From Siphonodentalium dalli (lineage: Eukaryota; Mollusca; Scaphopoda; Gadilida; Siphonodentaliidae): a stretch of DNA of 64,000 nucleotides. The notes beneath the pieces were generated by a model. It was given only the letters and a program-made list of their open reading frames with translations. It did not search any database and was not told the DNA's origin. Every line of letters starts with the position of its first letter. The stretch's first letter is position 1. Positions 32,612 to 58,503 of this stretch are shown one piece after another. A program made the translations under genes and the position numbers. Location: contig CP136062.1 in assembly GCA_032622095.1 (NCBI GenBank), positions 16,419,239 to 16,483,238 on the forward strand. Direction: 5' to 3'.

Positions 32612-33552
32612 GCCGTCTATATTATATACCCATGATTGTAATTATAGACTTGGTTTTGCGAATGACCAACTCAGAATTCCGTTAAAATAACAATAACAAC
32701 CAGCACCTAATCAACGAACAGGCGCTTAAGAAAGTCAAGTGTAAACGATCAGAGACGTGGCGACAGGGGGGGGTTTGGGGTGTCTCACCCCCCCCCCCCC
32801 AACTTTGGTCAAAATTTTCAACAGTTGGAAATTTCATACCTGACACAACATTAGTTGGAAATTTCACACCAACAATAGGTTGAAAATGTTCTTGTAGTTT
32901 GATTTTCAAACAATTTATTGGGGGGAATTTATTGTTTTTGGACCAATATTTGCATATTTTCCTTCTTTTGGTAAAATTTTGGAGTGAAATGGCCATCAGT
33001 TAGAAATTTTCCAACCTTAGGGGGTGTCAGGTCAGTGGTCAGGTTGGAAATTTCCAACACTTGGAAAGCTTGTGTCCTGGTCCCTCCCACGTGGCCAGTC
33101 AAAAACTTCTAGTTAATTTAAGAAAACAATATTGTCCTACATTTGGTACAAAATTGTCACTGGAATTGTCATCAGTTTGAAATTTTCCAACCTAAGTGGG
33201 GATGTCAGGTTTGAAATTTCCAACTCTATGAATGCTTGAGGCTCGTCTAGATGCTAGGATTTTGCGATTTTCTTGTTCAGATTTCAAAATGTTCGCACAC
33301 CGGGCCGAACCATGGTCGGCCTGGTGTGTCCTTGTCCCTCCCCGTGGCCAATAAAAAAATGCTAATGAAAACAATATTTACTACATTTGGTTAAAATTGT
33401 TGACTGAAATGGTCATCAGTTGGAAAATTTCCAAACTAAGGGAATATTTTCTGTGTGTCCTGGTCTATTGCCCATAGTCGTGTCCATTTGTCTGGAGTTA
33501 GACCACTAGATGTTAGGATTTGTGCAATGTTCAGGTTCAAAATATATAAATA
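32612..33552. repeat. Dispersed repeat rich in TTGGAAATTTCCAAC words
   Basis: Contains GACGTGGCGACAGGGGGG, a 13-base C run near 32790-32803, and many TTGGAAATTT motifs. An inverted related copy is at 62745-63225 and a partial one near 61120-61410. No ORF is supported. Confidence 0.65.
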
Positions 33553-34001
33553 CTAGCCGATGAGCCCGACGTTGTCCGGGCTATTCAAAAACCAAATTTC
33601 AAGTCGATAGCTCCACCCGTTTCAAAGATCTGGTCTGCGCATGCGCGAAGCTGGCGTCGCACGGGCTCGGTGACCCGATAAAATTCGTATCCGGGGAAAG
33701 ATACATTCACATACCAAATTTCAAGTCGATAGCTCCACCCGTTTCCGAGATCTCGTCTTCGCATGCGCGAAGCTGGCGTCGCACGGGCTCGGCGACCCGA
33801 TAAAATTCGTATCGAGGCAAGATACATTCACATACCAAATTTCAAGTCGATAGCTCCACCCGTTTCCGAGATCTCGTCTGCGCATGCGCTGCACGGGCGT
33901 CGCACGGGCTCGCCAATACGACAAAGACCACCGCCTGGTCAAACTACACACACGTACCAAGTTTCGTCCCGATCGGTAGAGAATCGTAGATTTGTATTAA
34001 T

Positions 34002-34043
<42 letters not shown>

Positions 34044-34065
34044 GGTCTTCAAAATATATATGAGA
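33553..34065 (-). mobile_element. Helitron, tandem copy 1
   Basis: Read on the - strand, the 3' end is a hairpin (AGCCCGGAC-AAC-GTCGGGCT), then CATCGGCTAG, followed by host T. The 5' end is TCTCATATATATTTTGAAGA, then a GTCT microsatellite. The body holds repeats of about 120 bp with GCGCATGCGC and CGCACGGGCTCG. There is no ORF, so it is non-autonomous. Confidence 0.85.
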
Positions 34066-34453
34066 CTAGCCGATGAGCCCGACGTTGTCCGGGCTATTCA
34101 AAAACCAAATTTCAAGTCGATAGCTCCACCCGTTTCCGAGATCTGGTCTGCGCATGCGCGAAGCTGGCGTCGCACGGGCTCGGCGACCCGATAAAATTCG
34201 TATCCGGGGCAAGATACATTCACATATCAAATTTCAAGTCGATAGCTCCACCCGTTTCCGAGATCTCGTCTGCGCATGCTCGAAGCGGGCGCCGCACGGG
34301 CTCGCCAATACGACAACGTCGACCGCCTGGTCAAACTACACACACGTACCAAGTTTCGTCCCGATCGGTCGAGAATGGTAGATTTGTATAAATGACAGAC
34401 AAACAAACAAACATACAGACAAATAAACAGAGGTCTTCAAAATATATAAGAGA
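34066..34453 (-). mobile_element. Helitron, tandem copy 2
   Basis: Its CTAG 3' end directly follows, in - strand sense, the TCTC 5' start of copy 1 with no bases between. The 5' end is TCTCTTATATATTTTGAAGA. It is shorter than copy 1 by one internal repeat. Confidence 0.85.
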
Positions 34454-34871
34454 CTAGCCGATGAGCCCGACGTTGTCCGGGCTATTCAAAAACCAAATTT
34501 CAAGTCGATAGCTCCACCCGTTGTCCGGGCTATTCAAAAACCAAATTTCAAGTCGATAGCTCCACCCGTTTCCGTGATCTGGTATGCGCATGCGCGAAGC
34601 TGCGTCGCACGGTCTCGGCGACCCGATCAAATTCGTATCCGGGACAAGATACATTCACATAGCAAATTTCAAGTCGATAGCTCCACCGTTTCCGAGATCT
34701 CGCCTGCGCATGCGCTGCACGGGCGTCGCACGGGCTCGCCAATACGACAACGACGACCGCCTGGTCAAACTAAACACACGTACCAAGTTTCGTCCCGATC
34801 GGTCGAGAATCGTAGATTTGTATAAATGACAGACAGACAGACAGACAGAGGTCTTCAAAATATATTATAGA
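34454..34871 (-). mobile_element. Helitron, tandem copy 3
   Basis: Same termini as copies 1 and 2 (5' end TCTATAATATATTTTGAAGA). Near the 3' hairpin it carries a 48-bp internal duplication (34478-34573) of the segment containing TTGTCCGGGCTATTCAAAAA. Confidence 0.85.
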
Positions 34872-35489
34872 CTAGCCGATGAGCCCGACGTTGTCCGGCT
34901 ATTCAAAAACAAAATTTCAAGTCGATAGCTCTACCCGTTTCCGAGATCTGGTATGCGCATGCGCGAAGCTGGCGTCGCACGGGCTCGGCGACCCGATAAA
35001 ATTCGTATCCGGGGCAAGATACATTCACATACCAAATTTCAAGTCGATAGCTCCACCGTTTCCGAGATCTCGTCTGCGCATGCGCGAAGATGGCGTCGCA
35101 CGGGCTCGGCGACCCGATAAAATTCGTATCCGGGGCAAGATACATTCACATAGCAAATTTCAAGTCGATAGCTCCACCCGTTTCCGAGATCTCGTGTGCG
35201 CATGCGCTTAACGGGCGTCGCACGGGCTCGCCAATACGACAACGACGACCGCCTGGTCAAACTACACACACGTACTAAATTTCAAGTCGATAGCTCGACC
35301 CGTTTCCGAGATCTCGTCTGCGCATGTGCTGCGCGGGCGTCGCACGGGCTCGCCAATACGACGTTGACGACCGCCTGGTCAAACTACACACACGTACCAA
35401 GTTTCGTCCCGATCGGTCGAGAATCGTATATTTGTATCAATGACATACATACAGACAGACAGACAGAGGTCTTCAAAATATATATGAGA
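34872..35489 (-). mobile_element. Helitron, tandem copy 4
   Basis: The longest copy (618 bp), with an extra internal repeat. Its 5' TCTC end is preceded by host A, so the whole four-copy array sits between A and T, the canonical Helitron target. Confidence 0.85.
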
Positions 35490-35998
35490 TTATCATACCG
35501 GGTAGATAGAACCATGGTTTATAAATAGGCTATTAGGCATGTGAACACTTAGGTGCAAGGAGGGAATGAAATTATGCGAAACCTTTGGTCTGATTCAAGG
35601 GGTGTTTTGGTTTGATTCAGGGGGGGGGGTGCAAATGGAATTATGCAAAACCTTGTCTCTGGTCTGATTCAAGGGGGGTGCGGTTGGAATTATCAAGGTG
35701 GACACCCCTCCACGGAGACCCTCTAGCCACGTCCCTGTAAACGATGCACGAAATTGTATTGCTTGTGTCAGAGCCCGGCAAAATAAAATCCACGTTGAAG
35801 TGTGCATATAAAATGAATGTCGAATGGGGTGTCATGTGTATTTTCAATAGCATCTAAGACACTCTGTGATCAGCTGTGCATATCAATTTTACACATAAGC
35901 AAACACTTTTACAAAAAAAATGCAAAATGACATAAGGAATCCGATTGTTTTGTTTTGTGTGTGTTAAAAGTGATATGAAAATGGAATATTTATGCGTA
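35490..35998. other. Unassigned DNA with a short triplicated motif
   Basis: GGTCTGATTCAAGGGG-type sequence occurs three times at 35585-35685 next to a 10-base G run. No exon or known element is seen. Confidence 0.45.
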
Positions 35999-36388
35999 GT
36001 ATGTGTATTAATGATCACGTGACGAACCAATACATGCCTAGTATGTGTATTAATGATCACGTGACGAGCCAATACATGCCTAGTATGTGTATTAATGATC
36101 ACGTGACGAACCAATACATGCCTAGTATGTGTATTAATGATCACGTGACGAACCAATACATGCCTAGTATGTGTATTAATGATCACGTGACGAACCAATA
36201 CATGCCTAGTATGTGTATTAATGATCACGTGACGAACCAATACATTCCTAGTATGTGTATTAATGATCACGTGACGAACCAATACATGCCTAATATGTGT
36301 ATTACTGATCACGTGACGAACCAATACATGCCTAGTATGTGTATTAATGATCACATGATGAACCAATACATGCTTATAGTATGTGTAT
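35999..36388. repeat. 42-bp minisatellite with E-box and CCAAT
   Basis: About nine units of ATGTGTATTAATGATCACGT plus GACGAACCAATACATGCCTAGT. Each carries the palindrome CACGTG and a CCAAT word. Because 42 is a multiple of three, long frames stay open on both strands (a 14-residue periodic peptide); this is an arithmetic artefact. Confidence 0.93.
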
Positions 36389-57254: not shown

Positions 57255-57471
57255 CCCTGCAGGGAGCCCCACACATTTATAGAATTATATAGAAGAGTGT
57301 CGTCTGCTCATGTTTGTCTGGGGCTCTGTATGGGTGAAATTATAAAATTGTTAAAGAATACAAGAAAAAATTATTAAAATTGTAAAAAATTGTTAGGCCA
57401 ATGCATTCTCTTATATATGCGAGGCGACCTATGGTCGACTCGCATATATAAGAGAATGCATTGGCACAGGG
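57255..57471. mobile_element. Core MITE inside the LINE endonuclease region
   Basis: It starts CCCTG and ends CAGGG with TA on both sides (57253-57254, 57472-57473). The right half is the 70-bp TGCCAATGCATTCTC palindrome; the left half is an AGCCCCACA-type segment instead of the usual palindrome. Removing it restores a continuous endonuclease frame. Confidence 0.8.
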
Positions 57472-58037
57472 TAAATAAACATGGTCCTCAAACCTAATGT
57501 ATACACAGGCTAAATAAACATGGTCCTCAAACCTAATGTATACACAGGCTAAATAAACATGGTCCTCAAACCTAATGTATACACAGGCTAAATAAACATG
57601 GTCCTCAAACCTAATGTATACACAGGCTAAATAAACATGGTCCTCAAACCTAATGTATACACAGGCTAAATAAACATGGTCCTCAAACCTAATGTATACA
57701 CAGGCTAAATAAACATTGTCCTCAAACCTAATGTATACACAGGCTAAATAAACATTGTCCTCAAACCTAATGTATACACAGGCTAAATAAACATTGTCCT
57801 CAAACCTAATGTATACACAGGCTAAATAAACATTGTCCTCAAACCTAATGTATACACAGGCTAAATAAACATGGTCCTCAAACCTAATGTATACACAGGC
57901 TAAATAAACATTGTCCTCAAACCTAATGTATACACAGGCTAAATAAACATGGTCCTCAAACCTAATGTATACACAGGCTAAATAAACATTGTCCTCAAAC
58001 CTAATGTATACACAGGCTAAATAAACATGGTCCTCAA
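57472..58037. repeat. 39-bp in-frame tandem expansion within LINE coding sequence
   Basis: About 14.5 units of AAATAAACATGGTCCTCAAA plus CCTAATGTATACACAGGCT. On the - strand each encodes the 13-residue peptide FED(H/N)VYLACVYIR. The only frequent variant is the H/N codon. Confidence 0.93.
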
Positions 58038-58311
58038 ATCCACAAATATTTTTATCAAGTTTTACCCAAATAAATTCTGCACAGCTTTCTAGTTCAGTTA
58101 TCGCTCCATTTGTAAAAAGCTCATTTTTATAGTATAAGATTATGCCACCTGACCGTCGACCTTTTTTTCCTTTCCCGTTATGACCTACCATTTGTATTGC
58201 TCTGTAACTCGGGAGATTTATGTCAGACTCCTCATTTGTCCACGTTTCCACCACCCCAAATATATCAAAGTGATTTTTGTTGATTGCTTCAACAAGTTTT
58301 TCTTTTGAAAA

Positions 58312-58503
58312 ACCATGGTCGACTCGCATATATAAGAGAATGCATTGGCACAGGGCATAACTGTAACCATCACAATGAGGTAAATGAACCGGTTCCAATT
58401 ATATCCATATGTGTATGTTGCTATTGAGACAGACCCAAGATATTTTAGGCTGTTGAAGCTTTATTTGGGCGTTTTTGGAAGGTTTGTTGGGTAAAGGGTT
58501 AAT
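58312..58503 (-). mobile_element. Type A MITE fragment
   Basis: Half of a core palindrome (GGTCGACTCGCATATATAAG to GGCACAGGGC) followed by the type A outer arm in inverse order, ending TGTTGGGTAAAGGGTTAA. It abuts the truncated 5' end of the second LINE. Confidence 0.75.

Follow-up and report, generated by a model that had tools for sequence, protein, structure and literature searches.

The four-copy block and its host site

The window analysed here, a stretch of 64,000 nucleotides from the scaphopod Siphonodentalium dalli (contig CP136062.1), contains a block of four non-autonomous Helitrons within one A|T site of a high-copy host repeat. The copies lie head to tail on the minus strand without any spacer, as an earlier note made from the sequence alone had described. 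From the 5′ end of the array they are copy 1 (34872–35489, 618 bp, an A-family element running from TCTC to CTAG), copy 2 (34454–34871, 418 bp, left end TCTATAATATATTTTGAAGACC), copy 3 (34066–34453, 388 bp, left end TCTCTTATATATTTTGAAGACC), and copy 4, the 3′-most (33553–34065, 513 bp). The three minus-strand joints are seamless and fall where the note had placed them, with no extra base at any: CTAG of copy 1 meets TCTA of copy 2 at 34871/34872, CTAG of copy 2 meets TCTC of copy 3 at 34453/34454, and CTAG of copy 3 meets TCTC of copy 4 at 34065/34066. Each copy starts with TCT and ends with a short hairpin and CATCGGCTAG. The hairpins, also described before, were located on the minus strand in all four copies. 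Those of copy 4 (33563–33582), copy 3 (34076–34095), and copy 2 (34464–34483) have one sequence, with a 6-bp stem and an 8-nt loop placed 10 nt before the 3′ end; that of copy 1 (34882–34900) is one base shorter and weaker. A variable GTCT-type microsatellite lies near the left end of each copy, and internal repeats have a period of ∼122 bp. The number of these repeats largely accounts for copy length (one core word that we counted matches 4, 3, 2, and 3 times in copies 1–4), much as the note proposed, and a 48-bp internal duplication in the 418-bp copy (34471–34574) also contributes.

As far as the assembly sequence goes, as distinct from reads, an assembly collapse at the block is unlikely; joints of this kind recur thousands of times, at distinct flanks. 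Elsewhere in the window, a 42-bp tandem repeat with units ∼98% alike lies beside the stack (35992–36200), and a minus-strand open frame at 57340–58398, LINE endonuclease-like by eye, is filled by an in-frame minisatellite of EDHVYLACVYIRF repeats.

Canonical Helitrons are defined by their termini, the position of the hairpin, and the A|T insertion site (in the sections of PMC13286980 and PMC5876387 drawn on here). All four copies have the 5′ TC, and their CTAG, with a hairpin 10 nt upstream, agrees with the 3′ CTRR and a hairpin 10–15 bp before it. The hairpin is modest: shuffled sequences fold equally well in 9 of 200 cases, and in 16 of 200 for copy 1. The empty site described below documents insertion at A|T without target duplication. 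Judged from its sequence, a same-ended element at C1:13739545–13748219 (minus strand) probably codes for the canonical Rep/helicase. This 8675-bp relative begins behind an A with the A-family left end TCTCATATATATTTTGAAGACC, ends in CATCGGCTAG, and has an open frame of 1614 codons with Helitron_like_N and PIF1; the shared ends suggest that it may drive the window copies. At least 151 Helitron_like_N matches are present in the genome (150 of 457 candidates scored). Equal-scoring pairs of Rep-domain matches, on one strand and 8.6–12 kb apart, occur at C2:141795020/141803591, C1:114628540/114638548, and C2:137056337/137068487, and from these pairs complete autonomous Helitrons may be stacked too. 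The central tandem repeats and microsatellite of the window copies are also traits of Helentrons and HINEs. Those elements have a right end other than CTRR and insert at T|T, whereas the copies here end in CTAG and occupy an A|T site.

For the empty site, we searched the genome with a query made by joining the host sequence of both sides (131 + 122 bases). All 40 matches scored, of 1579 first-look candidates, align straight across the junction with copies of the host repeat at 94–97% identity, which bears out the view that only the outermost A and T of the filled site are host bases. Three empty copies examined base by base read GGTATGATAA|TATT(T/C)ATATATTTTGAACC, with no insert. Since the empty copies read across the junction, the whole stack fills a single A|T with no target duplication. 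On the minus strand, the host A of this target lies at 35490, and the host T (33552) together with the target that follows it, TATTTATATATTTTGAA, spans 33536–33552. This sequence is present in the empty site and resembles a Helitron left end. We asked whether it was a truncated fifth Helitron closing the block on the right; the identical letters in the empty host repeat rule this out.

The same A|T of the host repeat holds stacks at three further loci, as seen on their right-hand side, and all four exact matches to the filled site (the window included) have at least three right ends. The four stacks differ in unit lengths and families and look like independent events, the left host border of one (L074) lying out of view. 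The L073 stack has a repeat of eight host bases (TATGATAA) at its left border, near 1470; this repeat is absent from the window and L072 stacks, and the L074 stack is unreadable there.

Joints, families, and targets across the genome

Joints of the CTAG|TCTC type, for which the note had suggested a search, are abundant in the 2.23-Gb assembly of nine contigs. The joint word CATCGGCTAGTCTC occurs 8924 times, compared with 3 for a reversed control, which excludes chance as the source of joints. Exact A-family left ends behind either CTAG or A number 15,800, with 8207 behind CTAG and 7593 behind A, some of the latter being CTA|TCTC joints. It is from these two counts that we take the commonness of joints, most fetched loci having been picked for having one; the arrays that were read lie mostly within the first 50 Mb of contig 1. 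Where a right end is followed by something other than TC, the next base is T in 4228 of 4443 cases and a different one in 215. Forty loci were picked for a T at +1 and a base other than C at +2, and hence neither position counts as evidence in them.

Variant joints were also seen. Six of the 125 A-family copies compared below (at L010, L011, L028, L031, L058, and L079) have a CTA|TCT joint that lacks the final G and recreates A|T at the joint; because L028, L031, and L058 have a common 3′ flank, these joints represent fewer than six events. A nearly identical 3′ flank is also found at L027, L032, L056, and L057. At L027, L056, and L057 the left-end sequence is present in inverted orientation as well, so that it faces itself, a pattern suggestive of a rearranged subfamily.

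Many sampled arrays pass directly from the A family into a family B (TCTATTATATATTTTGGAAGATC...CACCT(T/G)CTAG), or into others. Exact genome counts are 2657 for A then B, 485 for B then A, 3014 for B then B, and 869 for any TGCTAG end then A. Several of the 485 B-then-A joints fall within one amplified cluster; clusters of such joints at C1:188850288–188868830 (evenly spaced) and C2:103714342–103747259 (unevenly spaced) probably reflect local amplification. Under random order, steps out of A and into A should be about equal. Among the first 100 listed A left ends behind CTAG, 18 have a non-A neighbour upstream (at TGCTAG-end or B-then-A places), which extrapolates to ∼1500 of 8207, compared with 2657 for the A-to-B step by itself. 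Steps out of A are thus in genuine excess, though by less than the A/B pair alone implies. B copies have a between-locus mean divergence of 20.6% (25 copies, 15 loci), and at equal sample size nearest-neighbour divergence is 6.9% for B versus 3.8% for A. Greater divergence of B is expected if younger elements join on the left; part of it may come from subfamilies.

Host targets and the Helitron left end share a motif. Of 30 distinct 3′ flanks of host sequence, 24 contain TATATA or ATATAT at +3 to +14; the corresponding share is 1.75% for the window's 13,319 AT sites and 53 of 1781 for AT sites within the flanks themselves. The flank set was reduced from 55 right flanks to 42 by removing near-duplicates, and then to 30 by setting aside five flanks resembling Helitron left ends and seven (TA)n tracts, all seven of which carry the motif. 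Two such host targets, A|TAGTATATATATGG and A|TATTTATATATAATT, can be compared with A|TCTCATATATATTTTG at the element's own left end. The base before array heads is A in 46 of 50 distinct heads, and by eye three of the four exceptions resemble joints overlooked by the classifier, the fourth being a mis-set start. Motif-bearing sites number ∼8.6 million genome-wide, extrapolated from the window. Since the motif alone predicts far fewer joints than are observed, further attraction or later amplification is needed.

Relatedness of neighbours and the growth of stacks

The earlier note attributed the joints to a rolling-circle intermediate that copied through its terminator, and the copies of such a multimer would start as siblings of one family. 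We compared 125 A-family copies, parsed from 75 loci, over 227 aligned columns of end and core. The set leaves aside L001 (which overlaps L002), L023–L026 and L067–L071 (used for other tests), and L085–L087, and copies lacking a recognisable core were dropped (3 of 97 in an earlier subset, an uncounted number in the 125-copy set). Mean divergence is 8.57% for adjacent pairs (n = 62) versus 8.73% for between-locus pairs (n = 7623). A mean as low as that of the adjacent pairs arose in 142 of 2000 shuffles, so neighbours are slightly more alike than shuffled copies. Divergence is at most 3% in six of the 62 adjacent pairs, and in the earlier subset 5 of 66 copies have their nearest relative within their own array. 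The window copies differ from one another by 5.8–11.0%, and the closest relative of each within the 125-copy sample lies at another locus, not in its own array. The sampled copies are thus not the siblings of one element that a rolling-circle multimer would contain.

We consider it unlikely that a single event of copying past the terminator yielded a head-to-tail multimer that integrated whole and diverged afterwards. Such an event is expected to leave seamless joints without a host A, and some neighbours are indeed near-identical over their aligned bases (99.8% at L021, 98.5% at L075, 99.0% at L079); head-to-tail joints are also cited as support for rolling-circle replication in the relevant section of PMC5876387. 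However, neighbours in the sample resemble each other no more than copies at separate loci do, the nearer relatives of the window copies lie elsewhere, and thousands of joints connect different families. The interpretation that the note offered therefore survives in its Helitron identity, seamless joints, and single A|T site, but its rolling-circle origin of the joints is not supported. Divergence and mixed-family joints lead us to reject read-through as the main source of most sampled arrays. A few neighbours, in 6 of the 62 adjacent pairs and in the B arrays at L075 and L076, resemble each other closely enough to be products of read-through or of local duplication.

A shade less probable still is ordinary tandem duplication with unequal exchange, in which heterogeneity would come from exchange or conversion between arrays. 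Signs of such remodelling include interior duplication and higher-order blocks in L080 and at C1:31736300–31758900. L080 has an extra near-copy in mid-array when compared with L002, the host flanks of the two being 99% alike, and two blocks at C1:31.74–31.76 Mb have ordered units in common, up to 99.8% alike, with interior differences. Regular B arrays are found at C1:16050500 and C1:91675000; the two B arrays that were read have units of 604–927 bp that are 96.9–98.5% alike. These duplicated-array cases may include read-through products. Duplication nonetheless leaves unexplained both the mixed-family joints in a preferred order and the differently composed stacks at one host site, and the adjacent pairs within 3% are just the six mentioned. 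The long Helitron array at C1:31736300–31758900 (L085–L087) has come to resemble a satellite: blocks of several units recur in it, and one 2.5-kb unit is present, nearly identical, at two places.

Transposition of whole stacks as units, from the left end of the first copy to the right end of the last, would create many multi-copy loci at once and is forbidden by nothing in their anatomy, but we judge it very improbable: in what is a small sample, only 1 of 62 adjacent pairs recurs elsewhere with both copies within 1.5% (L002/L080, which have a common host flank, 99%).

We instead favour serial insertion, with a probability of roughly 0.7: the block would consist of separately inserted non-autonomous canonical Helitrons, stacked by insertion at the A|T of the left edge, with the youngest copy leftmost. 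Insertion by the enzyme would take place at an A|T whose T has TATATA or ATATAT no more than 14 bases further on. The left edge of a resident element would offer just such a target, composed of the host A and the element's own terminal T, followed by CTCATATATATTTTG. A newcomer inserted there would bring its CTAG against the resident TCTC and would again have the host A at its own left. Stacks would in this way grow without spacers and in constant orientation, the youngest copy standing at the left (5′) end. Most likely, target and left end would be alike through one Rep nuclease that nicks both, and a left end nicked in trans between A and T would be an ideal acceptor. Interior block duplication also alters established stacks.

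We infer this one-by-one growth at the A|T that is recreated at the resident left end, and also the nicking of that end in trans, which would supply the attraction needed beyond the motif. Several observations argue for serial insertion: neighbours are non-siblings, mixed-family joints are ordered, B is the more diverged family, A precedes array heads, and T follows right ends. To these we add the Helitron ends and the empty A|T, the motif at targets, the 8207 left ends behind CTAG, the differing stacks at one site, and the relative with putative Rep and PIF1. Other results count against it. The A family has no clear age gradient within stacks: the nearest-neighbour distance of the first copy is smaller than that of the last in 18 of 31 runs, greater in 11, and equal in 2, and consensus distance gives a Wilcoxon P of 0.63. 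Neighbouring copies show a slight excess of similarity over shuffled ones, and no before/after pair with an extra left-end copy was present among the fetched loci. In both paralogous comparisons (L002/L080 and the C1:31.74–31.76 Mb blocks) copy number changed inside the array, with no change seen at the left end. The motif is too common on its own, the asymmetry of order shrinks when all non-A neighbours are included, and the divergence of B may come in part from subfamilies.

Most of the sampled joints are better explained by resident left ends being targeted again and again. A broader proposal is tentative, and we would put it somewhat short of an even chance: in this genome the Helitron left end may itself be the preferred integration site, host targets being look-alikes of it, and the transposase that nicks a resident left end would join incoming right ends to it in trans. 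Mixed stacks would then form a left-to-right stratigraphy of successive waves, head-to-tail joints would be poor evidence of read-through, and stack order would offer a means to date Helitron waves relative to each other. The stacks here also show that dispersed transposons can seed satellite-like arrays.

Comparison with known systems

Head-to-tail Helitrons are already known. In a maize pair, the CTAG of one element lies directly on the TC of a dissimilar Helitron, and the pertinent part of Du et al. 2008 (PMC2267711) argues for consecutive insertion, either at an AT made up of the host's A and the 5′ T of the resident element or at the right-hand GT. Its survey of maize lines reports three in which the left element occurs by itself and none with just the right one; taken simply, this implies addition on the right or later excision, and it counts against left-end growth. 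The maize case, as presented there, is one pair whose order is left open, whereas here there are thousands of joints, several families, and a preferred order. The target motif common to the left end is a feature of the present stacks that goes beyond the maize pair of that account. On the present data, left-edge insertion is the better general account here, with the addition of a motif carried by the left end itself.

Tandem Helitrons are also described in the bat Myotis lucifugus and in plant centromeres (as summarised in the portions of PMC5876387, PMC2267711, and PMC5148889 used here). They are head to tail, as here, and are read in those summaries as rolling-circle products; unlike under that reading, the sampled neighbours here are mostly non-siblings. 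Three Helitrons in tandem in Metarhizium and a self-insertion in Fusarium appear in the excerpted text of PMC5148889, a single-case report in which the choice between insertion and rolling circle is left undecided. Within the Helitron literature searched, itself represented by partial texts and centred on sources other than the original bat and plant-centromere reports, we met neither a target motif resembling the left end nor stacks that combine families in a preferred order. What appears to be new here is the self-targeting account at this scale, the ordered stacks of mixed families, and the left-end-like target.

The Cg_HINE Helentrons of Crassostrea gigas, going by the relevant passages of PMC7492417, are likewise short and non-autonomous; they have tandem repeats at their centre and a microsatellite, which is GTCY in several of them. 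They are of the Helentron type and have subterminal inverted repeats, whereas the element here has a CTAG end and inserts at A|T. A parallel in how the system works is the bacterial IS608 of the IS200/IS605 family. Its target word TTAC stays at the left flank and is also the left cleavage site, and its cleavage and choice of target are guided by base pairing (according to the corresponding section of PMC5934647); the likeness is one of mechanism, not of membership. The present stacks suggest that in Helitrons, too, target choice and left-end cleavage are possibly one reaction.
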